From: Gammaproteobacteria bacterium
Lineage (GTDB): Bacteria > Pseudomonadota > Gammaproteobacteria > Thiohalospirales > Thiohalospiraceae
Direction of reading: 5' to 3'
Assembly: GCA_015490535.1 (NCBI GenBank)
Contig: WFXP01000099.1
Coordinates: 1-37,964 of the forward strand
Length of the DNA stretch: 37,964 nucleotides
Shown: piece by piece, positions 4,182-23,526 of the stretch
How positions within the stretch are numbered: the stretch's first letter is position 1
How the letters are laid out: the number at the start of each line of letters is the position of its first letter
Made by a program: the position numbers and the translations under genes
Notes under the pieces: model-generated
Seen by the model: only the letters and a program-made list of their open reading frames with translations
What the model was told of the DNA's origin: nothing
Databases searched by the model: none

Positions 4182-6743
4182 CTACTCCGGATCTTCGCCG
4201 TCCAGCATGTCGCGCAGCCGGTACAGCTTCTCCAGCGCCTGGCGGGGGGAGAGTCCGTCCAGGTCCATGCCGGCCAGGGCCTGCTCCACCGGCGAGCGGC
4301 TCGGTGGCGGCGCGTCCGCGGCCGGTACGGTGGTCCGGGACGGGGTCCGGGCCGGGTGCTCCCGCTCCAGCTCCCGGAGCCTGTCGCGCGCCCGGCGGAT
4401 GACCTCCGCCGGCACTCCCGCCAGCGCGGCCACCTGCAGCCCGTAGCTCTGGTTGGCCGCCCCCTCCTTGACGGTGTGCATGAATATGATCCGCTCCCCC
4501 TGCTCCGTGGCGTCGAGATGGACATTGGCGATCCCCTCCACCTGCCCGGCGAGACGGGTCAGCTCGAAATAGTGGGTGGCGAACAGGGTGAAGGCGCCGA
4601 TCTCCCGGGCCAGATGGAGGGCGCAGGCCCAGGCGAGGGAGAGGCCGTCGAAGGTGCTGGTGCCGCGCCCTATCTCGTCCATCAGCACCAGGCTGTCGGG
4701 GGTGGCGTTGTGCAGGATGTTGGCGGTCTCGGTCATCTCCACCATGAAGGTGGAGCGGCCGCTGGCCAGCTCGTCGGAGGCGCCGATGCGGGTGAAGATG
4801 CGATCGACGGGGCCGATGAGCGCCCTCTCCGCCGGTACGAAGCTGCCCATGCAGGCCAGCAGTACGATCAGGGCGGTCTGGCGCATGTAGGTGGATTTCC
4901 CCCCCATGTTGGGACCGGTTATCAGCAGCATGCGGCGGCCGCGATCCAGGTGCAGATCGTTGGGAACGAACGGTTCCTCCTGGAGCTGCTCCACCACCAG
5001 GTGGCGCCCGGCGGTTATCTTCAGCTCCGGGCGGCCGGTGAGCTCCGGCGCCACCAGCTCCAGGGTGGCGGCGCGCTCCGCCAGGTTGTTCAGGGCGTCC
5101 AGCGCGGCTATCGCCGCGGCGCTCTGCTGCAGCGATTCCAGCTCCCGGGCAATGGTGTCCAGCAGCTCCTCGTAGAGCCGCTTTTCGCGCGCCAGCGCAC
5201 GCTCGTTGGCGCTCAGCACGCGATCCTCAAACTCCTTGAGCTCCGGGGTTATGTAGCGCTCCGCGCCCTTGAGGGTCTGGCGGCGCTGGTAGCGTGCCGG
5301 AGCCCTGTCGCTCTGGGCACGGCTCACCTCTATGTAGTAGCCGTGCACCCGGTTGTAGTTGACCTTCAGGTTGGCGATGCCGGTCTGCTCCCGTTCCCGC
5401 TGCTCCAGCTCCAGCAGGTAGCCGCTGGCGTTGCGCTGCAGGGAGCGCAGCTCGTCCAGCTCCGCGTCATAGCCGGGGGCGATGACGCCGCCGTCCCGGA
5501 TCAGCTGGGGGGGCGCCTCCACCACCGCCTGACGCAGCAGCCGGTGCAGCTCGGGGAAGCTGCCTATCCTGCGTCGCAGATCACGCAGCAGCGGAACCTC
5601 CCGGTCCGTCAGGCTCTCCCGCAACTGGGGCAGCTTTCCCAGGGCGGTGCGCAGCTGTACCAGATCCGCCGGGCGTGCCGAGCGCAGGGCGATGCGGCTC
5701 AGGATGCGCTCCATGTCGCCGATGCCGCGCAGCTGCTGCTGCAGCTCCTCGTAGCCGTGCCCCTCCAGCAGGGCCGCCACGACGGCGTGGCGCCGGCCTA
5801 TGGCCTCCCGGTCGCGCAGCGGGCGGTTGAGCCAGCGCCGCAGCAGACGGCTGCCCATGGCGGTGGCGGTGTGATCCAGCACCGCGGCCAGGGTCTGCTC
5901 CGGGTGGCCCGAGAGGCTGCTCTCCAGCTCCAGGTTACGGCGTGTGGCGGCGTCCAGGATTATGCTCTCGTCGCGCCGCTCCACATGCAGAGAGCGTATG
6001 TGGGGCAGCGCGTTGCGCTGGGTGCCGCGCACATAGTGGAGCAGACCTCCGGCGGCGGCCACGGCGAGCGGAAAGGGGTCGCAGCCGAAGCCGGTCAGCT
6101 CCCGGGTGCCGAACTGTTCACACAGCATCCGCGTGGCGCTCTCCAGCTCGAAGTGCCACGGTGGCAGCCTCTGCAGGGCGGCGCTGCAGGATGGTTCCAC
6201 GGAGTTCTCCTCGCAGGCCACCAGCTCGGCCGGCTGCAGGCGCTCCAGCTCCCCGGCCAGCGCCTCTTGGTTCTCCAGCTCCATCGCCAGAAAGCGCCCG
6301 CTGGTGACATCCATCCAGGCCAGGCCGAAGCGATCTCCCCTCTGCAGCAGCGCCGCGATCAGGTTGTCCCGGTTCTCCTCCAGCAGCGCCTCCTCGGTAA
6401 CGGTGCCGGGGGTCACGATACGGGTGACGCGCCGCTCCACCGGTCCCTTGCTGGCGGCGGGATCGCCGATCTGCTCGCAGATGGCCACCGACTCCCCCTG
6501 CCTGACCAGTCTGGCCAGGTAGCTGTCCACCGCGTGGCAGGGAACGCCTGCCATGGGGATGGGCTCGCCCGCCGACTTGCCCCGGCTGGTCAGGCTGATG
6601 TTGAGCAGACTCGCCGCCTTGCGGGCGTCGTCGTAGAACAGCTCGTAGAAGTCTCCCATGCGGAAGAAGAGCAGGATATCCGGGTGTTGCGCCTTGATGG
6701 CGAGATATTGCTGCATCAGGGGCGTGTGCTGGGCGCGGCTCAT
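4182..6743 (-). CDS. mutS: DNA mismatch repair protein MutS
   Basis: Recognises mismatches and small loops and, with ATP, recruits MutL. The mismatch-wedging Phe-X-Glu is seen as F32-Y-E34. The C-terminal ATPase has Walker [10 protein letters not shown] (about residue 610) and the [12 protein letters not shown] signature/Walker B. I chose the ATG at 6743, giving 853 residues ([13 protein letters not shown]...), the same length as E. coli MutS. A TTG 12 codons upstream would add a low-value extension. The downstream space (4094-4181) shows GC-rich short hairpins but no clear terminator. Divergent from pilZ-pncC-thpR across a MITE-like element. Confidence 0.95.
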
Positions 6744-8633: not shown

Positions 8634-8674
8634 TTGATGCATATCAAGGACACGAGGGGGCGGGTGTGTAGAAA
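8634..8674 (+). promoter_or_regulatory. FNR-type class II promoter
   Basis: TTGAT-GCAT-ATCAA at 8634-8647 is a perfect match to the FNR/Anr consensus TTGATNNNNATCAA. A TAGAAA -10 element follows at 8669-8674. With the FNR site centred at -41.5 the start point would be about 8682, the geometry of activated class II FNR promoters. No protein-coding gene begins before the strong terminator ending at 8780, so the promoter is best read as driving the short transcript listed next. Confidence 0.68.
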
Positions 8675-10820: not shown

Positions 10821-10971
10821 CAACTTTTCAGCTCACCCCTGAAATCCGCCATTGCTGCGTTGCAAAATGGTCACTTAGCCTCTCGTAAACTCCCCTTTTC
10901 GCCTTGAACTGATGGATTTCCGGGGCGATCTGACAGTTGCCGGCCTGCTTCACACCATGCCGAACGGTCTC
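10821..10971 (+). repeat. Palindromic intergenic repeat, copy B
   Basis: Same family as 8473-8620: CAACTTTTCAGCTCACCCCTGAAATCCGCC on the left (given here only as a family mark, 10821-10850), CTGCGTTG, TCTCGTAAAC, TTTTCGCCTTGAACTGATGG and GATTTCCGGGGCG on the right, then CCGGCCTGCTTCA and GCCGAACGGT. One mismatch (TTTCCGG for TTTCAGG) weakens the outer stem. It fills the space between the WecA-like gene and the convergent binding-protein gene and runs up to the latter's stop. Confidence 0.72.
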
Positions 10972-12028
10972 ACAACTTCAGGTTTTTCTCCTTGATCTTC
11001 TTCCAGGCGGTGGTATACAGCCGGTTCTGCTCGGCGTTGTGGACAAAGGCCCTGCACTCCGAGCGCTTGATTACCGCGGCCGGAGGGGAGAGCGCGGGAT
11101 TGTTTTGGTAGCTTTCGCCCAGCAGATCGGCTGCCGCCCGGTTGGTGGTGGCATAGTGAAATCTCCTTGCCAGGCTGGCAGAGATATCCTTGTCCATCAG
11201 AAAGTTGATGAGTTGATGTGCGGCAACCGGGTCGGCGGCATGTCTGGGGATGCACAGCAGTTTTTGCCGGATGATGGTGCCTTCGGCAGGTGCGGCAAAG
11301 CCGAATTCGCTGTATTCACGCAGCTCCTTGTGGAAATCGTCGCTCCACGACATTACCAGATCCACCTCGCCGGAAAGCAGCAGTTTTGTGGGGCGGGAGG
11401 TGAAAGCCTTCACCTTGGGACCCTGTCTGGCCAGTAGCCGGGTCGCCTCTCCGATGATCTCGGGTGTGGCGGAGTTGATGGAGTGCCCCAGGTACTTCTG
11501 GGCCACCTGTATGGTGCTCATTTTGTCATCCAGCAGGGCCATGCGGTTGGCGTGCTCGCTGCTTTCCAGCAAGACTCTCCAGCTTTCCGGGGGGTTGGAA
11601 AAAGCGGCCCTTCGATATCCTATTCCCAGGGTTCCCCAAAAGTAGGGCAGACTGTAGACGCGCTCCGGATCATCCGGCGGGAGCGGAATGATCGGGTTCA
11701 GCTGGCCGGCATTCGGGATCAGGGAGCGATCGAGCGTCGCCAGCAGCTTGGTGTGCAGCAGGTGGGATATGCTGTCATCGGGCGCCATGGCAACATCGAA
11801 GCGGGGTTTGCCGCCCAGGAACTTGGCTATGAACTGGGCATCGTTCCCATATTTGTGCCGCTGCACCTTCATGTTGGCGAGCCTGCCGAACTCGCGCAGG
11901 GTCTCGGCATCGACCCCGTTGCTGCAGCCCAGGAAGTGAACCGTTTTCGGGCGGTTCGGTTTTGCGTGGATCGGGCAGAACGGCAGCACGGCTGCCGCGG
12001 CCAGGAAAGAGCGTCTGGAATAGTTCAT
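10970..12028 (-). CDS. Orphan Tat-exported periplasmic binding protein, polyamine/iron (PotD/FbpA) type
   Basis: A 352-residue class II ABC solute-binding protein. It begins MNYSRRSFLAAAAVLPF: a twin-arginine SRRSFL signal with a short hydrophobic stretch and a cleavage-like site near IHA (residue 22). The mature part follows the PotD pattern (WGTLGIGY segment, DLVMSWSDD, and the HQLINFLMD segment near the C-terminus typical of spermidine/putrescine binders). No permease or ATPase is adjacent, so it may feed a transporter elsewhere or serve sensing. The ligand is not deducible; PotD-like is the nearest family by eye. It lies 193 bases downstream of rpiA on the same strand. Confidence 0.75.
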   Translation of the reverse strand: MNYSRRSFLAAAAVLPFCPIHAKPNRPKTVHFLGCSNGVDAETLREFGRLANMKVQRHKYGNDAQFIAKFLGGKPRFDVAMAPDDSISHLLHTKLLATLDRSLIPNAGQLNPIIPLPPDDPERVYSLPYFWGTLGIGYRRAAFSNPPESWRVLLESSEHANRMALLDDKMSTIQVAQKYLGHSINSATPEIIGEATRLLARQGPKVKAFTSRPTKLLLSGEVDLVMSWSDDFHKELREYSEFGFAAPAEGTIIRQKLLCIPRHAADPVAAHQLINFLMDKDISASLARRFHYATTNRAAADLLGESYQNNPALSPPAAVIKRSECRAFVHNAEQNRLYTTAWKKIKEKNLKL

Positions 12029-14878: not shown

Positions 14879-15079
14879 ATGAAGCGGCGTAAACCCGACA
14901 TTCTGCTGGTACTGGCGGTCGTAACCGGGCTGGGGGTGCTGGTCACCGGCTCGGTACAGAGCCTGTTTTATTCCCCGACCGCAGGGGAGTCCCTGCGGGA
15001 AGCGGGAGAGATCGGCGACGACACCTCTCCTGACTCCGGGGGCGACAGCTTTGCGGTGAACGGGGGCGGGAGTCGCTGA
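14879..15079 (+). CDS. Small single-pass membrane protein, unknown function
   Basis: A 66-residue frame: a basic MKRRKPD start, one hydrophobic helix (about residues 8-26, ILLVLAVVTGLGVLVTG), then a polar, acidic, Gly/Ser-rich tail of 35 or so residues that should face the periplasm by the positive-inside rule. I do not recognise the family. The ribosome site is weak (CAGGCAACTCACACC), but codon use and the coherent membrane topology favour a real gene. It converges on the narK-usp operon; the two stops are only 17 bases apart. Confidence 0.5.
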   Translation: MKRRKPDILLVLAVVTGLGVLVTGSVQSLFYSPTAGESLREAGEIGDDTSPDSGGDSFAVNGGGSR

Positions 15080-15096
15080 AACCCTCCCGCCTTGCC

Positions 15097-15225
15097 TTAC
15101 CAGAGAAGTATCTCTCTTGCGAGATTCATCAGCGGTGTAGAGTAGTCGGAGAGCAGGTAAAGGCTGATCCCCAGCCCAACAGCCCCGGCAACGGCCAGCA
15201 CCGGCAGGAACTTTTCGATGTTCAT
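15097..15225 (-). CDS. 42-residue membrane microprotein at the end of the narK-usp operon
   Basis: An ATG at 15223-15225 opens a 42-codon frame ending TAA at 15097: MNIEKFLPVLAVAGAVGLGI then SLYLLSDYSTPLMNLAREILLW. It has one transmembrane helix (about residues 6-25) and a short amphipathic tail. It starts 27 bases after the Usp stop on the same strand, so it is probably co-transcribed. Its length is below usual gene-calling limits. The ribosome site is modest (GGTGGCGAT). Function unknown; a small subunit or regulator of a membrane complex is possible. Confidence 0.5.
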   Translation of the reverse strand: MNIEKFLPVLAVAGAVGLGISLYLLSDYSTPLMNLAREILLW

Positions 15226-15252
15226 GGTTGTATCGCCACCGTTTGGTTTGTC

Positions 15253-15672
15253 TCAATGGGTCATCATGACGGGACAGGGTGACTCCTTCGCCAGACGGCG
15301 CAGGTTCAGGCGGTGCATGCCCGCCTTTTCCCCGACGCCTACGACGATGAGGTCGACACCCCTCTCATTTGCCATTTCGACCAGCTCCTCCTCCACGTAG
15401 CCCACCTTCACCTCAAGGGTGACCTCCACCCCTTTCTCCCGGGCAATCTCCTCCAGGGCTCCAAGGGTGGAGAGAGCCTTTTGTTGCAGATCCTCGATGA
15501 TCACCGACCACAGCCGATCGGACGGGGCTATGGTTTCCCCCTCGAACGCCACGACCTTGAGACCGATCAGTTCGGCCCCCTGATCCGCAGCCACGGCCAC
15601 CGCCCGCTCCGCTGCGTTCCTGCTGGCTTGCGAGCCATCGAATGCTATCAGTATCCTGTTGAAAACCGCCAT
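15253..15672 (-). CDS. Universal stress protein (UspA family)
   Basis: A 139-residue single Usp domain of alpha/beta fold, starting MAVFNRILIAFDGSQASRNA, with DLIVVGVG and a PCPVMM C-terminal strand. The usual ATP-binding signature GxxG(x9)G(S/T) is degraded: the stretch reads GVGEKAGMHRLNLRRLAKES and lacks the final Gly-Ser/Thr, so nucleotide binding is doubtful. Ribosome site GGGAGGT. It lies in a minus-strand set narK - 84-residue membrane protein - usp - 42-residue microprotein, suggesting a role under the conditions in which nitrate or nitrite is transported. Confidence 0.87.
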   Translation of the reverse strand: MAVFNRILIAFDGSQASRNAAERAVAVAADQGAELIGLKVVAFEGETIAPSDRLWSVIIEDLQQKALSTLGALEEIAREKGVEVTLEVKVGYVEEELVEMANERGVDLIVVGVGEKAGMHRLNLRRLAKESPCPVMMTH

Positions 15673-15773
15673 GGTAGTTTACCTCCCGCGTCTCCACACC
15701 GTCCGCTTGCGGACGAATCCAGACAGGCCGTTTGCAGCGTCAACCCATACCCCTGCGCCCTCCATCCACATCG

Positions 15774-16028
15774 CTACTGCTTGGCGGGGGCATCGATGGT
15801 GCTGCTGTTCGGCTCCTCTCTGGCCGGTGCCGGTTGCTCAATCGTCGCCTTCGGCTTCTCGAAGGTGACCTTCTTCTTGAACTCCACCGCTTGCCCGGTG
15901 AACGCCATGGAGAGCGCGTATATGCTGACGGCTATCGCCAGCGCCGCCTCGAAGAACAGAAACGCCACTCCATATTTGTACCACGGTTCATACTCGTAGT
16001 CTTTCGGTACCTTGGAAACTCCAGCCAT
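15774..16028 (-). CDS. Small single-pass membrane protein, unknown, in narK operon
   Basis: An 84-residue protein: a polar N-terminus (MAGVSKVPKDYEYEPWYKYG), one hydrophobic helix (about 20-43), then a Lys/Glu/Pro-rich extended tail (AVEFKKKVTFEKPKATIEQP). It has a textbook ribosome site (GGAGG, seven bases before ATG) and starts 54 bases past the narK stop, so it is almost certainly translated with it. I do not recognise the family. The aromatic YEYEPWYKYG segment before the helix may help it associate with a membrane partner. Confidence 0.72.
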   Translation of the reverse strand: MAGVSKVPKDYEYEPWYKYGVAFLFFEAALAIAVSIYALSMAFTGQAVEFKKKVTFEKPKATIEQPAPAREEPNSSTIDAPAKQ

Positions 16029-16082
16029 TGTGTTGCCTCCAGTAGTGTTAAGCTCGACTCGGTTGGTTACAGGTTTTCACCG

Positions 16083-17459
16083 CTATGCCTGCTCCTGGCC
16101 GCCTTTCCCCAGCCAGCGCTCCTTGCTGCCGAACCCGTGCTCTTCCGGATGCACATCCCAATGCATGGCCCATATGAAGTATAGTATGAACGGGATGAAC
16201 AGGAAGGTGGCCACCAGCGCGTATCCCCAGTGAATTCCGCCCACCTCGAACCAGCCGGCGGCCTCTCCATATATCAGCGGGTAGATTATCCCCCCCGCGC
16301 AGGATACACCGCCGATGAAACCGGTGGCGGTTCCAGGGCGCTCCTTGAACATCAGCGGGACGATGGCGAATGTTCCACCGGTACCGAAGCTGACCGTCAC
16401 TCCGAACAGGGCGAGGATGAGCACCGACAGAATGAGGTTGTTCTGCAGGCCGGCAACGGTCAGCAGGATCATGGTGGTGGTGATGGAGAGCAGGGCGAAC
16501 ATCAGCCAGTGAATCCTGGGCGCGTAGTCCAGGTGTTTGGAGATCATCGGGAATGGTGTCCAGCCCTTGCGTTGCCAGATGTCTGAAATCCATCCCGAGA
16601 AGGGGCGGAACAGAGAGGCGTTGAACGACTGCACCGCGGCGAAGGAGCCGGCGGCGATCTGGACATCCTGCAAGGACTGGAACCCGAGCTCCCTGATGGC
16701 CTCCTCGAAGCCCATCTTGTAGTAGCCGGGCAGCCAGGCGTTCATCCCGATCTCCAGTCCGAAACTCATGGCGTACGCCAGCATGAGGGCGATGGCGGCG
16801 TGGCGCGTCCATACGAAAGCGGTATCGCGCAGGGTGGCGGTCTTCTTGGCCATCGCCGCCTGTTCGGCGCTCTTGGCCGGCACGCCGCGCAGCAGTATCC
16901 AGAGGGCGATGATGAAGGCCACGATGCCCAGATGGATGAATGCGGTGTGGTAGTCGAGCCCGTATATCCTCGGCAGCAACAGGGCCCCCACCCCGGCGCC
17001 CACGTTGCCGGTGCCGGCATACAGGCCCTCGGCGGTTCCCATCTCTTCCGACTCGAACCATTGGGCCACATGCTGGATCCCCACCACGAAGGAGATGCCG
17101 GCGGTGGCCACCACCACCCTGGTCCAGAACAGGAACTGGTACTCCGTCACACCAATCGCGGGACCCAGCGTCGCGGCGTGTGCCGACAGGATACTGAATG
17201 CCCCGGTCACCACCAGGATCAGGACGAAGGCCTTGGGAGCGCCGAATTTGTCGGCGGCCCATCCGGCCAGGGGTCTGGCAATGGGGGCGGTCCAGATGGC
17301 GGAGCTTGCCAGCAGCGCGACCCCTTTCACACCGAGATCGAACTGGGAAGCTATGGTTGGAACGAATGCGGCGCTGGAAAACCACAACAGAAAACACCAG
17401 AAGAACGCCACCGCGGCCATTATCAGCTGTTCTACCTTGTGTGTCTTGATGTTTCTCAT
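16083..17459 (-). CDS. narK: Nitrate/nitrite transporter, MFS (NNP family)
   Basis: A 458-residue, 12-helix major facilitator protein. The nitrate signature is visible twice: AEGLYAGTGNVGAGVGALLL in the first half and FGTGGTFAIVPLMFKE...FIGGVSCAGG in the second, the glycine-rich helices 5 and 11 of NarK/NasA/NrtP. It imports nitrate and/or exports nitrite across the inner membrane. The ATG has a strong AGGGGAATAAAG ribosome site. It is divergent from narXL and followed by the 84-residue membrane protein, Usp and a microprotein. No nitrate reductase genes are in the window, so an assimilatory or respiratory role is not settled; the nearby nirBD argues for assimilation at least in part. Confidence 0.85.
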   Translation of the reverse strand: MRNIKTHKVEQLIMAAVAFFWCFLLWFSSAAFVPTIASQFDLGVKGVALLASSAIWTAPIARPLAGWAADKFGAPKAFVLILVVTGAFSILSAHAATLGPAIGVTEYQFLFWTRVVVATAGISFVVGIQHVAQWFESEEMGTAEGLYAGTGNVGAGVGALLLPRIYGLDYHTAFIHLGIVAFIIALWILLRGVPAKSAEQAAMAKKTATLRDTAFVWTRHAAIALMLAYAMSFGLEIGMNAWLPGYYKMGFEEAIRELGFQSLQDVQIAAGSFAAVQSFNASLFRPFSGWISDIWQRKGWTPFPMISKHLDYAPRIHWLMFALLSITTTMILLTVAGLQNNLILSVLILALFGVTVSFGTGGTFAIVPLMFKERPGTATGFIGGVSCAGGIIYPLIYGEAAGWFEVGGIHWGYALVATFLFIPFILYFIWAMHWDVHPEEHGFGSKERWLGKGGQEQA

Positions 17460-17917
17460 CTTTATTCCCCTGTTAGCTGAACTGGGTGTTGCTCAGACCT
17501 CAGGCCGTATGTAAGCGGATACCATGGACACAACAAAGCTGTCTTGCATACCCCGGCGCGGGAATCTCCGACCGTGCGGTCTGAACCGGGAACCGGATAG
17601 TGTGGTGGTGCGATTCGGAATGTCAGCACCTCCTGCTAGCTGGTTGCCAATCGTATTACTCTTGCTCTTGCGAGGGAATTTAACTACAGAGAGTATGGGT
17701 TGCAACCATGGGAAGGGCTTCTGCAGCGTTGCCGAATACCAATTAGGTGGTAAAGGGGTAGTTTTGTATCGTATTGATTGAACGGATGATTGTTCCGCGG
17801 TTTTCAATAAAACCGCACTTGATCGAGGGACAATCAAACCCCCTGGAATTTTGGTGGTATCCCTCCGTTTCCAGGGTATTCCGTTTCCATGGCGGGCGGC
17901 GACGCTATAATGGGGGC
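17460..17917. promoter_or_regulatory. narK-narX divergent intergenic region
   Basis: These 458 bases hold no gene that I can support. A perfect short hairpin, GCGGTTTT (17797-17804) and AAAACCGC (17809-17816), lies mid-region without a T tract. TTGAT-N9-ATCAA at 17819-17837 has FNR-like half-sites at the wrong spacing. TATAAT at 17906-17911 precedes the narX ATG by only six bases and has no good -35. Promoters for both genes should be here, but I cannot place them with confidence. Confidence 0.4.
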
Positions 17918-19846
17918 ATGGCGAAGCTAACCAAAAAGTCGCTGCTGCTGCGGATGGGTATAGCCATGGCGACCATTACCTCCTTCGCTTTCGTCAGTAT
18001 GGTCAGCTCCGTGATCATAGCCGAGATGACCCAGGGAGTGGCTGCCGCGGTCAACCAGGCCGGCACCCTGCGCATGCAGTCTTACCGGATCGCCAACGCC
18101 CTGGCCCAGGAGATGGCGGCGGAGAGCAGCGATATGCCGCGGTTCGCCGCCACCACCAACCGGATGGTGCAGGAGTTCGAATCCCGGCTGCTGGACTCCA
18201 GGCTGGTTTCCATTCTTTCCCGAAACACCAATAACAGGCTTGGTGCGGCCTACCGGGATGTCAACAGGCAGTGGTATGGCAGGATCAAGCCGCTGTTTGT
18301 CGCGGAGGGGGGTTCCGCCTCCGGCGAACCGGCTTCCCTGAGCCCACGCGTCCGCTACCTGTCCATCGTGGACGGGTTTGTGGCGGATATCGACCATATG
18401 GTCAAGCTGCTGGAGCAGGATGTGGAGTCGAAGATAAGCCTGTTGCGCCTGATCCAGATAGGCTCGCTGTTTCTGACCCTGATCGTGGTTTTTCTGACCA
18501 TGTATCTCATGAACAGCAAGGTTCTGGTCCCGCTGCGTGATCTGCTGGCCTGCGCGCAAAGCGCCCGTCACGGCGATTTCTCCATCCGCACCCGGTATAC
18601 CGGGAGTGACGACGAGCTGGGGCAGCTGGGCTACGCCTTCAATGTCATGGCCGATGATCTCTCCAAGAAATACTCTGATCTGGAGGAGCGGGTGCGGGAG
18701 AAGACCTCCGATTTGGAGCGCAGCAACCGCTCGCTGGAGCTTTTGTACAATACCACCAGGCGCCTGTATATGGCCCCGGTCTCCGATACAGCGTACACGG
18801 CGCTGCTGAGAGATATTGAAAAGCTGGTGGGGGTCGGTCCCGGAACCATCTGCATAAATGATGAAAACAGCAGCGACCGCGCCTTCAAGCTGGCGACCAC
18901 GCGAAACCCTCCGCCGGGAGAGGTGGACACCTGCTCTCCACCCAACTGCCCCGCCTGTTACGGAGAGCACAACACCCATACCATGAAGTTTGTCCGCAAC
19001 AAGGGGGATCAGCTGCACATAATATCCACTCCGATCAGGGATCAGAAGCAGCAGTACGGGGTGTTGCTGACCGAGATCCCGCGGGGGATGAAGCTGGACG
19101 AATGGCAGACACGGCTGCTGGAGGCGGTGGCGCGCCACATCGGTATCGCCATAAACATCTCCCGCCAGGCCACCGAGAGCCGGCGGCTGGCACTGCTGGA
19201 GGAGCGGGGAGTCATCGCCCGGGAGCTGCATGACTCCCTGGCCCAGTCGCTCTCCTACCTGAAGATCCAGGTGGTGCGTCTCAACGTTGCCCTGACCCGC
19301 TCTTCCGACGATCAGGCGGTGGGTCCGATAATTGACGAGCTGCGTGACGGGATCAGTCGTGCCTACCGGCAACTGCGCGAACTTCTCACCACTTTCCGCC
19401 TGAAGATCGATGGTCCCGGGTTGAATGCGGCGCTGGAGGAGACGGTGGAGGAGTTCCGGGAGCGCAGCGGTATAGTCATCACCCTGGATAACCGGCTGGG
19501 GGTGCTCCAGCTCGGCGCGAACGAGGAGATCCATGTTTTACACATCATTCGCGAGGCGTTGGCCAACGTTACCCGCCACTCCAGGGCGTCGCAGGCACAG
19601 GTGGAGATCCAGCATGTCAAGCAGAGCGGCGAGGTGATCATAAGGATTTGTGACGACGGCATCGGGATCGATGAGGAGGCGGAGCGGGCGGATCACTACG
19701 GTCTCGCCATCATGAACGAACGTGCCAGCGGACTGGGCGGAGCCATCCAGGTATTCAGGCGCGCCGAAGGGGGGACCGAAGTGAGGCTGGTGTTTGTCCC
19801 GAGCGGCTCGAGGTGTTCTGACGAGAAGATGCGGAGAACGGCGTAG
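17918..19846 (+). CDS. narX: Nitrate/nitrite sensor histidine kinase
   Basis: A 642-residue NarX-type sensor. Order: TM1 (about 12-33); a periplasmic domain opening with the nitrate-binding P-box AAAVNQAGTLRMQSYRIAN (42-60); TM2 (178-198); HAMP (199-250); a linker; a central domain with three cysteines C339, C344 and C347, as in NarX; then the HisKA_3 dimerisation box with phospho-acceptor H438 in ARELHDSLAQ, and the HATPase with N-box EALANVTRHS and DDGIGID. Nitrate or nitrite binding at the P-box drives phosphorylation of NarL. The ATG at 17918 gives the natural N-terminus; a longer frame back to 17774 is not conserved-looking. It abuts narL. Confidence 0.93.
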   Translation: MAKLTKKSLLLRMGIAMATITSFAFVSMVSSVIIAEMTQGVAAAVNQAGTLRMQSYRIANALAQEMAAESSDMPRFAATTNRMVQEFESRLLDSRLVSILSRNTNNRLGAAYRDVNRQWYGRIKPLFVAEGGSASGEPASLSPRVRYLSIVDGFVADIDHMVKLLEQDVESKISLLRLIQIGSLFLTLIVVFLTMYLMNSKVLVPLRDLLACAQSARHGDFSIRTRYTGSDDELGQLGYAFNVMADDLSKKYSDLEERVREKTSDLERSNRSLELLYNTTRRLYMAPVSDTAYTALLRDIEKLVGVGPGTICINDENSSDRAFKLATTRNPPPGEVDTCSPPNCPACYGEHNTHTMKFVRNKGDQLHIISTPIRDQKQQYGVLLTEIPRGMKLDEWQTRLLEAVARHIGIAINISRQATESRRLALLEERGVIARELHDSLAQSLSYLKIQVVRLNVALTRSSDDQAVGPIIDELRDGISRAYRQLRELLTTFRLKIDGPGLNAALEETVEEFRERSGIVITLDNRLGVLQLGANEEIHVLHIIREALANVTRHSRASQAQVEIQHVKQSGEVIIRICDDGIGIDEEAERADHYGLAIMNERASGLGGAIQVFRRAEGGTEVRLVFVPSGSRCSDEKMRRTA

Positions 19847-20506
19847 ATGGAGCACGAACGCGGTATAAGCACGCTACTGACCATAGATGATCATCCGCTG
19901 TTTCGCAAGGGGGTGGCGGATCTCATAGCTCTCGACGACACCCTGGCGCTGGTCGGGGAGGCGGCATGCGGCGAAGAGGGGCTGGAGCTGGCGAAGAGAC
20001 TGAACCCGGATCTTATTCTGCTCGACCTGAACATGAAGGGGATGGACGGTATCGAAACCCTGAGGGCCATCAAAAGCGCTGAGCTGGACTCCCGGGTGAT
20101 CATCCTGACGGTGTCGGACAACGAGGAGCACGTGGTGGCGGCGCTGCGAGCCGGGGCGGATGGTTATCTTCTCAAGGACATGGAGCCGGAGGAGATTCTG
20201 GAACGGCTGCAGATGGCGTCGCGGGGGCGTCTGGTGATAAGTGACAAGTTGACCGAATTGCTGGCCCACGCCTTGCGGCACGAGTCCACGCCACGTGATC
20301 CCGACAAGGCGGGACTGACCAGGCGCGAGCAGCAGATCCTCGGCCTGATAGCCAAGGGGCTCAGCAACAAGCTGATCGCGCGGGAGCTGGATATCACGGA
20401 GGGGACGGTGAAGGTCCACGTCAAGCACATGTTGAAAAAGCTCAACCTGCACTCCAGGCTGGAGGCGGCTGTATGGGTGGTAAACAGCAGGAGACCGGTG
20501 CAGTAG
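19847..20506 (+). CDS. narL: Nitrate/nitrite response regulator, LuxR/NarL class
   Basis: A 219-residue response regulator. The receiver domain has the acidic pair D14-D15, phospho-acceptor D60 (LLDLNM), T88 and K110. The output domain (about 150-205, LTRREQQILGLIAKGLSNK onward) is a LuxR/NarL helix-turn-helix. Its ATG follows directly on the narX stop (TAGATG), so the kinase and regulator are coupled. When phosphorylated by NarX it should bind TACYYMT-type heptamers at nitrate- and anaerobiosis-controlled promoters. NarP would be an alternative name; narL is favoured by narX linkage. Confidence 0.92.
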   Translation: MEHERGISTLLTIDDHPLFRKGVADLIALDDTLALVGEAACGEEGLELAKRLNPDLILLDLNMKGMDGIETLRAIKSAELDSRVIILTVSDNEEHVVAALRAGADGYLLKDMEPEEILERLQMASRGRLVISDKLTELLAHALRHESTPRDPDKAGLTRREQQILGLIAKGLSNKLIARELDITEGTVKVHVKHMLKKLNLHSRLEAAVWVVNSRRPVQ

Positions 20507-20671: not shown

Positions 20672-20695
20672 GGGCGGGCTGTACAATGCCCGCCC
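20672..20695 (+). promoter_or_regulatory. GC-rich hairpin at the predicted 5' end of nirBD mRNA
   Basis: GGGCGGGC (20672-20679) and GCCCGCCC (20688-20695) form a perfect 8-bp stem around the loop TGTACAAT. It begins at the predicted sigma54 start and ends 38 bases before the nirB ATG. There is no U tract, so it is not a plain terminator; 5'-end stabilisation or an attenuation element read by an RNA-binding regulator are options. Confidence 0.5.
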
Positions 20696-20733
20696 TTGCT
20701 GGACCCGAGGCGCTCGACAATGCGGAAATTGCC

Positions 20734-23181
20734 ATGAACAAGCAGAGGCTGATACTGGTAGGAAACGGCATGGCCGGTATCCGGACGCTGGAGGAGCTGC
20801 TCAAGCTGGCTCCCGACAGGTACGAAATCACCGTATTCGGTGACGAACCGTACGGCAACTACAACCGGATCTTGCTGTCGCCGGTGCTGGCCGGGGAGCA
20901 GGAGTTTGAACAGATCATACTCAACGACGAGGAGTGGTATCGGCAGCACGGTATCACGCTGCACGCCGGCTGCAGGGTGGAGCGCATAGATCGCGCGCGG
21001 CGCCAGGTGGTGGCGCAGGATGGCAGCACCGCTCCCTACGACAGGCTTCTTCTGGCCACCGGTTCCTCTCCGGTGCTGCTCCCGGTTCCGGGGCACGATC
21101 TGGATGGGGTGATCGGCTTCCGTACCATTGCGGATGTGGAGCAGATGCTCGCTGTCAGCCGCAGCCACCGTGACGCGGTGGTAATCGGGGGCGGGCTGCT
21201 GGGGCTGGAGGCGGCCAACGGGCTGCTGCAGCGCGGCATGAACGTCACCGTGGTGCATCTGCTGGACACCCTGATGGAGCGCCAGCTGGACAGGACCGCC
21301 GCGGGGATGCTGCAGCGCTCCCTCGAGGAGCGGGGTCTCAAATTCCGCCTGGAGGCCGAGACCGAGGCGATCCTGGGTCAGGAGCGTGTGGAGGGGGTCC
21401 GCTTCAAGGATGGTACCGAGCTGGCGGCGGACCTGGTGGTGATGGCGGTGGGGATCCGCCCCAACATCGAGCTGGCCCGCCAGTGCGGCCTGTACTGCGA
21501 GCGGGGTGTCGTGGTCAACGACACCCTGCAGACCTTCGACCCGCGCATCTATGCGGTTGGAGAGTGCGTCCAGCACCGCGGGGTCACGTACGGCCTGGTG
21601 GCCCCCCTGTTCGAGCAGGCGCGCGTGTGCGCCAATCATCTGGCCGAATACGGCATAGGGCACTACGAGGGATCGGTTTCGTCCACCAAGCTGAAGGTGA
21701 CCGGCATCGATCTGTTCTCCGCCGGAGACTTCACGGGCGACGAGCGGAGCGAGGAGATCGTGATGCAGGACGCCTCCGCCGGTATCTACAAGAAGATCGT
21801 GCTCCGGGACAACCGCATCGATGGAGTGGTGCTCTACGGGGACACGGTGGACGGTGCCTGGTACTTCCAGCTGCTGCGTGACGGCACCGACGTCAGCGAC
21901 ATGCGGGACCAGCTGCTGTTTGGCCAGGGCAACCTGGGCAACGCCGGCCATGGCGGAGAGAACGCCTCGGTGGAGCTGCCCGACGACGCCGAGGTGTGCG
22001 GCTGCAACGGGGTAACCAAGGGGGAGATCGTCAAGGCGATCCTGGAGAAGGGGCTGTTCACCCTGGAGGAGGTGCGCACCCACACCAAGGCGTCCGCCTC
22101 CTGCGGCTCCTGCACCGGTCTCGTGGAGCAGATCCTGGCGGACACCGCCGGTGGTGACTACTCCGCGGCGCCCGCCACCCAGCCCATCTGCAAGTGCACC
22201 GACTACAGCCACGATGACGTTCGCAACACCATCCGCCAGGCGCACCTCACCAGCATCCGGGCCGTGATGGAGACGCTGGACTGGCGCACCCCCGACGGTT
22301 GCAGCAGCTGCCGGCCGGCGCTCAACTACTACCTGATCTCCACCTGGCCAGGCGAGGTGCAGGATGACGCGCAGTCCCGCTTCATCAACGAGCGGGTCCA
22401 TGCCAATATCCAGAAGGACGGAACCTACTCTGTGGTGCCGCGCATGTGGGGTGGTGTCACCTCTCCCGACCAGCTGCGCGCCATCGCCGACGTGGCGGAA
22501 AAGTACAAGGTTCCCCTGGTCAAGGTTACCGGGGGGCAGCGCATCGATCTGCTCGGGGTCCGCAAGGAGGATCTTCCCGCGGTGTGGGCCGATCTGAGCG
22601 CCGCGGGCATGGTTTCCGGTCATGCCTACGGCAAGTCCCTGCGTACCGTGAAGACCTGCGTCGGCTCCGAGTGGTGCCGCTTCGGCACCCAGGACTCCAC
22701 CGGGCTCGGCATCAAGCTGGAGAAGATGTGCTGGGGAGCCTGGACGCCCCACAAGTTCAAGATTGCCGTCTCCGGCTGCCCGCGCAACTGCGCCGAGGCC
22801 ACCATCAAGGATTTCGGTGTGGTGTGCGTGGAGTCGGGGTACGAGCTGCACATTGGTGGCAACGGCGGAGTCAAGGTGCGCGCCACCGATCTGCTCTGCA
22901 AGGTGGTGACCGAGGAGGAGGTGCTGGAGTACTGCGGGGCATTCCTGCAGCTTTACCGGGAGCAGGCGCACTATCTGGAGCGCAGCGCACCATGGCTGGA
23001 GCGGGTGGGTCTGAGCTTTATCCGGGAGCAGGTGGTGGAGGACGCGCGGCGGCGCAAGGCGCTGTGCGAGCGGTTTCTCCATGCCCAGAGGTTTGTGCAA
23101 CAGGATCCCTGGGCACAGATCGCTGGCAGTGACGAGGCGAACCGTGGCTTCACGCCGCTCAAGGTTCTGGAAGAGAGTTAG
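20734..23181 (+). CDS. nirB: NADH-dependent nitrite reductase, large subunit
   Basis: An 815-residue cytoplasmic enzyme reducing nitrite to ammonium with NAD(P)H. Domain order: FAD/NAD-binding pyridine nucleotide reductase (1 to about 290, with GNGMAG and GGGLLGLEAA nucleotide motifs); a first BFD-like [2Fe-2S] domain with C422, C424, C457 and C460; a second Cys set C486, C488, C523 and C526; then the siroheme/[4Fe-4S] nitrite-sulfite reductase region with C642, C648, C682 and C686 in the invariant C-x5-C-x33-C-x3-C spacing. The start at MNKQRLILVGNGMAG is chosen on homology. Preceded by a sigma54 promoter and NtrC-like sites; nirD follows after 24 bases. Confidence 0.95.
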   Translation: MNKQRLILVGNGMAGIRTLEELLKLAPDRYEITVFGDEPYGNYNRILLSPVLAGEQEFEQIILNDEEWYRQHGITLHAGCRVERIDRARRQVVAQDGSTAPYDRLLLATGSSPVLLPVPGHDLDGVIGFRTIADVEQMLAVSRSHRDAVVIGGGLLGLEAANGLLQRGMNVTVVHLLDTLMERQLDRTAAGMLQRSLEERGLKFRLEAETEAILGQERVEGVRFKDGTELAADLVVMAVGIRPNIELARQCGLYCERGVVVNDTLQTFDPRIYAVGECVQHRGVTYGLVAPLFEQARVCANHLAEYGIGHYEGSVSSTKLKVTGIDLFSAGDFTGDERSEEIVMQDASAGIYKKIVLRDNRIDGVVLYGDTVDGAWYFQLLRDGTDVSDMRDQLLFGQGNLGNAGHGGENASVELPDDAEVCGCNGVTKGEIVKAILEKGLFTLEEVRTHTKASASCGSCTGLVEQILADTAGGDYSAAPATQPICKCTDYSHDDVRNTIRQAHLTSIRAVMETLDWRTPDGCSSCRPALNYYLISTWPGEVQDDAQSRFINERVHANIQKDGTYSVVPRMWGGVTSPDQLRAIADVAEKYKVPLVKVTGGQRIDLLGVRKEDLPAVWADLSAAGMVSGHAYGKSLRTVKTCVGSEWCRFGTQDSTGLGIKLEKMCWGAWTPHKFKIAVSGCPRNCAEATIKDFGVVCVESGYELHIGGNGGVKVRATDLLCKVVTEEEVLEYCGAFLQLYREQAHYLERSAPWLERVGLSFIREQVVEDARRRKALCERFLHAQRFVQQDPWAQIAGSDEANRGFTPLKVLEES

Positions 23182-23205: not shown

Positions 23206-23526
23206 ATGTCGCGCTGGATAGAGATAGGCAATCTGGATGATATTCCGGTACTGGGCTCACGGATCGTGCAGACCCCCCGGGGAGATATCGCGCTGTTCCG
23301 CACCGGCTCCGGCGCGGTGTTCGCCCTGCGCGATCGCTGTCCCCACAAGCAGGGCCCCCTCTCGCAGGGTATGGTTCACGGCACCACCGTCACCTGCCCG
23401 CTGCACAACTGGGAGATCGATCTGGAGACGGGCGAGGCTCTGCCGCCTGACGAGGGCTGCACCAATACCTATGCGACCCGGGTGGAGAACGGGGTGGTGA
23501 TGATTGAGTTTGGCGGTGTCTCCTAA
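23206..23526 (+). CDS. nirD: Nitrite reductase small subunit, Rieske type
   Basis: A 106-residue NirD/Rieske-fold subunit. Unlike E. coli NirD, which lacks metal ligands, this protein has the complete Rieske set C45-x-H47 (CPHKQGPL) and C64-x2-H67 (CPLHNW), so it probably carries a [2Fe-2S] cluster. That pattern is common in assimilatory NasE/NirD proteins. It lies 24 bases downstream of nirB with a GAGAGG ribosome site and is the last gene of the operon. A MITE remnant and a palindromic repeat follow. Confidence 0.9.
   Translation: MSRWIEIGNLDDIPVLGSRIVQTPRGDIALFRTGSGAVFALRDRCPHKQGPLSQGMVHGTTVTCPLHNWEIDLETGEALPPDEGCTNTYATRVENGVVMIEFGGVS

Follow-up and report, generated by a model that had tools for sequence, protein, structure and literature searches.

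NRT2 is a protein of the major facilitator superfamily (MFS), NAR2 (NRT3) has about 200 amino acids (aa) and a domain outside the membrane, and KdpF is a small single-helix membrane subunit. In plants and algae, NRT2 is a nitrate transporter that needs NAR2 as its partner (PMC4232926), and NarK-type transporters are described as monomeric (PMC2483277). The sections at hand on the haloarchaeal nas operon give nasA, nasB (NarK-like) and nasC, with nasD apart, and mention no small open reading frame (ORF) (PMC8143581, PMC2483277). AcrZ and CydX are single-helix members of large membrane complexes (for AcrZ with AcrB, PMC7267776), and AcrZ and CcmD are small membrane subunits (PMC10903887). Here, we analysed a 37,964-nucleotide (nt) stretch of DNA (the window; genome G000, contig C99, 2.13 Mb) that carries a four-gene operon, narK-p84-usp-mini42, and found that p84, an 84-aa membrane protein, is not a local oddity but a conserved, apparently unnamed small protein and the probable partner of a NarK/NasB-type transporter subfamily. 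Labels beginning with L denote loci of relatives and those beginning with G denote genomes. The four frames of the operon are as follows:

16083-17459, minus strand: narK-type MFS transporter, 458 aa (PF07690, 100 bits; TIGR00886, 148.6 bits, below cut-off)
15774-16028, minus strand: p84, an 84-aa small membrane protein and proposed transporter subunit (core adjoining narK in 21 loci; ratio of nonsynonymous to synonymous differences, pN/pS)
15253-15672, minus strand: Usp, a universal stress protein of 139 aa (PF00582, 84.3 bits)
15097-15225, minus strand: mini42, a second small membrane protein, 42 aa (pN/pS; relatives L002-L006)

The nearest functional likeness to narK and p84 would be NRT2/NAR2, a transporter with a partner, although p84 shows no sequence relation to NAR2 (no Pfam family above cut-off). 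NasB of the Haloferax mediterranei nasABC operon, compared by description, is likewise a NarK-like transporter in a nas operon; the published operon, in the parts available, names no small ORF, whereas the window's subfamily has p84 (PMC8143581, PMC2483277). Escherichia coli NarK shares the MFS fold with the window's transporter but is only 23% identical to it over 332 columns and has no p84 at its locus. AcrZ, CydX, CcmD and KdpF resemble p84 in having a single helix but serve other partners and show no p84 sequence match above cut-off. Among the matches listed in the literature searched, which covers subscription journals thinly, none described a small partner protein for a NarK-type transporter of prokaryotes. 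A database label, "MFS transporter small subunit", exists for short proteins encoded next to other MFS genes; that literature does not use the phrase and NCBIfam had no match above cut-off, so the label is no more than a lead for p84.

p84 accompanies one NarK subfamily in bacteria and haloarchaea

The p84 core comprises 30 residues (about 16-45 of the window protein; bacterial form WYKYGVAFLxxE...YxLxMxFxG) and in 21 loci follows directly downstream of a narK of one subfamily. The loci are those of the window, of 16 further bacterial genomes and of four haloarchaeal plasmids. A scan of bacterial and archaeal genomes with exact bacterial p84 peptides returned 14 loci, none of them archaeal, and every one has narK (57-94% identity to the window's) directly upstream. 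These loci come from four genus relatives (Gammaproteobacteria, Chromatiales), two Salinisphaera, one Lysobacterales metagenome-assembled genome (MAG), three Alphaproteobacteria, a Beijerinckiaceae MAG, two Proteobacteria MAGs and an Acidobacteriaceae MAG; p84 is also carried by G516 and G523, two further genomes from the order to which Salinisphaera belongs.

Searching plasmids with the window's narK, we recovered four haloarchaeal transporters (59-61% identity) in nas-type loci, with nasA in three of the four stretches and ferredoxin-nitrite reductase in all of them. The next ORF after each transporter is 42-56 aa long and holds the p84 core, overlapping narK by 1 nt in three cases and abutting it in the fourth. 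Three of these ORFs are annotated as hypothetical; the fourth, at 5335-5460 of the Haladaptatus plasmid record L034, comes directly after the transporter but has no entry in the incomplete PLSDB gene table. A profile of bacterial p84 rows found the four archaeal ORFs at E values of 4e-15 to 1e-11 (next best of 1303 frames, 0.86), and a model built from two window-genus rows found them at 2e-8 to 6e-7, with otherwise only known bacterial matches at E<=1. By eye, core positions 1, 5, 9, 12, 16, 24, 28 and 30 are W, G, L, E, A, L, F and G in 21/21 loci, an invariance partly forced by the search pattern, which itself required several of them.

Where the start is clear, p84 forms range from 42 to 85 aa, with little beyond the helix except in the window's genus. 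Bacterial forms outside that genus are close to 50 aa long, with uncertain starts in L008, L010 and L014, and mostly end in GGFPGKH or GGFPGH; within the genus, a hydrophilic tail of about 40 residues, specific to it, stands in place of the GGFPG(K)H-type end. Window p84 and mini42 had no NCBIfam match, and window p84 had no Pfam match at E<=1. Among the relatives scanned, three p84 proteins gave only Pfam matches far below cut-off, the small proteins of L033, L006, L009 and L003 had no NCBIfam match, and that of L035 matched only PsbN (13.1 bits versus a cut-off of 70). A sequence search of solved structures yielded one p84 match at E 2 and none for narK at E<=0.001. The window p84 peptide found nothing among plasmids, missing even the known haloarchaeal relatives, so peptide searches miss divergent forms; a haloarchaeal p84 peptide found those four plus one E. 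coli match at E 9.

The short frames are very probably genes

The first-pass annotation had put narK, the 84-aa frame, Usp and the 42-aa frame in one operon, credited the 84-residue protein with a strong ribosome site and described both miniproteins as membrane proteins. All of this held on reanalysis, with the coordinates as given and all four frames on the minus strand. p84 has a good ribosome site (CTGGAGG before the ATG), with a GGAGG-like site also in most relatives whose start is clear; the mini42 site is weaker. Each protein contains a single hydrophobic stretch (highest hydropathy over 19 residues, 2.23 for p84 and 2.13 for mini42), and the single-helix call comes from this measure. 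The annotation was to count as refuted if relatives sharing the gene order did not conserve the two short frames, and this did not happen: narK-84aa-usp-42aa is kept in L002-L005, and L006 has narK, a 53-aa p84 and a 46-aa mini42-like ORF, with no Usp match.

Across the window and genus relatives L002-L005, pN/pS was 0.12-0.27 for p84, 0.06-0.38 for mini42 and 0.21-0.37 for Usp (10 pairs each), and 0.06-0.08 for narK (6 pairs); pS was 0.53-0.89 across all pairs and genes, so that synonymous sites are nearly saturated. Both p84 and mini42 are under purifying selection. We excluded L002 narK from this count and from the structure alignment because of an internal stop. At this locus (513-1877), two same-register frames are split by a stop codon, which may reflect a sequencing error or a recent pseudogene; the p84, usp and mini42 frames of L002 are open.

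Chance ORFs or decayed gene ends might be suspected in frames so short, which belong to no family above cut-off and of which one decayed p84 copy exists, but these pN/pS values at nearly saturated synonymous sites, the p84 ribosome sites and the cross-domain profile match make this extremely improbable. Considering pN/pS, the p84 ribosome sites, the conserved order and the profile match in L006, both short frames are very probably genes.

narK and p84 occur together

Searches with narK (E<=1e-20, or 1e-30 in a 398-genome sample of the phylum) matched 15 distinct genomes, of which 14 have p84 beside narK. Twelve of the 15 were already known p84 carriers; the new ones were G516 and G523, each of which has p84, and also G398, in which the narK match ends at contig base 2 after 138 of 458 residues and the downstream side is cut. 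No genome in the narK-searched sets combined this narK and a readable downstream side with the lack of p84. Within one order, p84 and narK turned up in an identical set of 5 genomes out of 85, and the remaining 80 gave neither; in the window's order (12 genomes), p84 was found in five and narK in six, the extra one being G398. In the 398-genome sample, only the window's own genome had a clear p84 and only that genome had narK; a p84 match in G382 (0.0057, inside a 438-aa frame) was taken as chance. narK was found in 1 of 396 genomes sampled from the phylum of the Acidobacteriaceae MAG (the seed genome), in 2 of 96 of an alphaproteobacterial order (both previously known) and in one of the two genomes of the order of L006 (L006's own); in the 398- and 396-genome samples, each genome listed had no more than four candidates scored, so misses are possible. 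Viral contigs gave no narK. A NarK-like match was present in 40 plasmid records, with p84 in the four haloarchaeal ones; its absence from the others is weak evidence, as the window peptide missed even those four.

Both p84 and this narK look rare. Wherever both places were readable, narK and p84 stood together in every locus, save for one decayed p84 fragment. This retention bears on whether p84 might be a regulator and not a structural subunit, binding NarK conditionally and tuning how fast or how selectively it transports, in the manner of AcrZ and AcrB. p84 fits such a role in being small, in having one helix and in sharing an operon with the protein on which it would act, and AcrZ gives a precedent (PMC7267776); in the window's genus, the presence of Usp and of another small protein in the operon would suit conditional control. 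A dispensable regulator should, however, have been lost somewhere, and p84 is kept in 14/14 readable narK-searched loci (12 of the 15 genomes being known beforehand), which leaves regulation a possible but rather unlikely role.

p84 as a candidate subunit of a nitrate transporter

We consider it likely, on the pattern of conservation, that p84 serves the NarK/NasB-type transporter as a dedicated subunit or partner. NarK is the proposed partner because it is the sole neighbour common to all 21 loci, and the contact would be in or at the membrane because the haloarchaeal and short bacterial forms hold little beyond the hydrophobic stretch. The first-pass annotation had remarked that small membrane proteins in transporter operons often modulate the transporter, and either protein might do so here. 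The tie of the 84-aa protein to one transporter subfamily across two domains of life makes transporter partner its likeliest role; the 42-aa protein has no such spread (genus and L006 only).

Under this proposal, two genes would encode the nitrate (or nitrate/nitrite) transporter, with p84 as the small subunit and its helix packed against the 12-helix MFS protein as a thirteenth. The helix would begin with WYKYG or WYRWG at the membrane edge, carry a Glu about one third of the way in and end in FxG, and the transporter might need p84 to insert stably or to complete its transport cycle, in the way that plant NRT2 needs NAR2. An AlphaFold2 model of a single chain running from narK through the gap into p84 had a mean predicted local distance difference test score (pLDDT) of 70.9 and a predicted template modelling score of 0.73, with the p84 helix at 492-521 (pLDDT about 70). 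In the window's p84, basic residues flank the helix on either side, so its topology is uncertain. In a wider version of the proposal, the transporters of this NarK/NasB-type subfamily, in bacteria as in haloarchaea, would be obligate two-subunit machines of an MFS protein and a 42-85 aa single-helix subunit, an independently arisen prokaryotic counterpart of NRT2/NAR2; this version seems to us evenly balanced between right and wrong.

Nitrate-linked genes in many loci would also fit a p84 that does not touch NarK and instead anchors some other protein of the nitrate pathway in the membrane, or acts as its adaptor, adjacent to narK through shared nitrate use. The neighbours vary, however (molybdopterin reductases, nasA, nirBD, nosZ, a moaA-like gene and unrelated genes), and only narK is present in 21/21 loci, so we regard an anchor of this kind as quite improbable.

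Several points weigh against p84 as a dedicated nitrate-transporter subunit. The association seen here is one of gene linkage, and linkage can mean joint function without contact. Most narK searches centred on genomes chosen for p84, which leaves the reverse test only partly independent. The haloarchaeal nasA locus L037, with a 37%-identical homologue, is without p84, so nearby transporters manage without it. The second p84 copy of G444 (L055, G444:C3, 1-330) has decayed and lost the WYKYG part, and no narK was found in the 6 kb covered. The narK-p84 gap reaches about 250 nt in the Salinisphaera order, which is loose for a co-translated subunit. Finally, no nitrate-linked neighbour was seen in 7 of the 21 loci (L002, L004, L007, L008, L010, G516 and G523), L004, L008, G516 and G523 having been scanned with the window's own proteins only. 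Separately, the decayed G444 copy sits behind what appears by eye to be the end of an outer-membrane porin.

If p84 is such a subunit, the expression, purification and engineering of NarK-type transporters would change, and the small ORF left hypothetical in nas-type loci would have a role. The p84 system would then offer a minimal case for asking what makes a partner necessary to some MFS transporters of nitrate, as NAR2 is to NRT2, and not to others.

The transporter and its nitrate-linked neighbours

The narK label of the first-pass annotation stood in part: the window's transporter is, by sequence comparison, an MFS protein (PF07690, 100 bits versus a cut-off of 33.4) that is only distantly NarK and not canonical. 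Against the NarK nitrate/nitrite model TIGR00886, with a cut-off of 311.7, it scored 148.6 bits, and three relatives scored 145.2, 156.9 and 157.7 bits. A structural model of the transporter aligned with NarK 4u4w at Z 31.0 and a root-mean-square deviation of 3.1 over 375 residues, with many MFS chains scoring equal or higher. We compared 12 E. coli NarK positions, several of which have a role in nitrate binding. Eight (F49, A86, F147, N175, Y263, F267, R305 and G408) are identical in all 13 other aligned sequences, and four (R89, G171, L173 and S411) differ; R89 is replaced by T, M or L, and the aligned sequences have a conserved Arg four residues after NarK position 89. Two stretches (about 253-263 and 308-314, window numbering) are longer in p84-bearing transporters than in L037 and might be docking sites for p84; relative to E. 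coli NarK, the 308-314 stretch is longer too, the 253-263 stretch not clearly so.

Divergent from narK in the window, nitrate-linked genes lie as follows:

17774-19846, plus strand: NarX-like histidine kinase, divergent from narK, start codon uncertain (PF07730, PF02518)
19847-20506, plus strand: NarL-like response regulator (PF00072, PF00196)
20686-23181, plus strand: nirB-type nitrite reductase large subunit (PF07992, PF04324, PF01077, PF03460)
23206-23526, plus strand: nirD-type Rieske protein (PF00355, 56.4 bits; PF13806, 55.6 bits)

Nitrate-linked genes adjoin the pair in 14 of the 21 loci. Besides narXL and nirBD in the window, these are nosZ, nosR and narX in L003, narXL in L005, a moaA-like gene in L006, ANTAR and NMT1-like proteins with a nirB-like stretch in L009, nirB-like stretches in L011, L012, L013, L014 and L015, and nas-type genes in the four haloarchaeal records. 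ANTAR and NMT1-like proteins of the kind seen in L009 go by the names NasT and NasS. A gene 72% identical to the window's NarX-like kinase adjoins narK in L003 and L005. L011, L012 and L015 have a large molybdopterin reductase near, for which formate dehydrogenase alpha was the best model (448-471 bits) and the assimilatory nitrate reductase NasC the second (389-410 bits); because neither reached its cut-off, it is only a candidate nitrate reductase. The remaining neighbours among those scanned are unrelated (ABC exporter, OpuAC, TonB-type and HAD proteins, and a choice-of-anchor protein).

From these neighbours, the function of the transporter is likely to be nitrate or nitrite transport. As the pair lies beside narXL and nirBD, and beside nosZ in a relative, it probably serves nitrate respiration or ammonification in the window's lineage, and probably nitrate assimilation elsewhere.

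mini42 and Usp

The two miniproteins both look like genes and proved unequal, the 84-aa protein being a widely conserved partner and the 42-aa protein found in the genus and L006 only. mini42 has matches in L002-L005 at 62.5-72.5% identity and a weaker one in L006, which a model built without L006 found at E 1.3e-6 (next of 3454 frames, 5.7). Nothing better than E 5.7 appeared in 11 stretches (L007-L015, L031 and L032), and nothing better than E 0.31 in five haloarchaeal stretches and one from E. coli. Among the 12 genomes of the window's order, five have clear mini42 matches, the same five that carry p84; two weak matches in G408 fall inside long frames. A profile comparison probability of 1.6% led us to reject mini42 as a duplicate of p84. 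On sequence evidence, mini42 is a real gene, lineage-specific as far as seen (the window's genus and the L006 MAG), and is probably a lineage-specific modulator.

Usp matches PF00582 with 84.3 bits (cut-off 24). Its place in the narK operon, as first annotated, holds in the window's genus (L002-L005) and was not found with narK beyond it, stretches L006-L015 giving no match at E<1e-3. Usp is an ordinary soluble passenger of the operon in this genus, outside the conserved core.

Other features of the window

Scans for sigma-70 promoters (2 found versus 1.5 expected) and terminators (2 found versus 2.3 expected) in the window came out near expectation. A hairpin lies 3' of mini42 at 15065-15091, with no T run seen. 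The window has 17 FNR-type sites with up to 2 mismatches, whereas shuffles had 6.4 on average and 1 of 100 reached 17. We set aside the sites near narK, as those near the operon (15243, 15557 and 17446) have 2 mismatches each and the sole exact match, to the FNR-type sequence TTGATNNNNATCAA at 8634-8647, is far off.

A 66-aa ORF (p66; 14879-15079, plus strand) with an N-terminal hydrophobic stretch is convergent with mini42; it had no Pfam match at cut-off and none at E<1 in L002-L015. A solute-binding protein (PF13416) is encoded at 10970-12028 on the minus strand, between genes that by eye look glycosyltransferase-like and rpiA-like.

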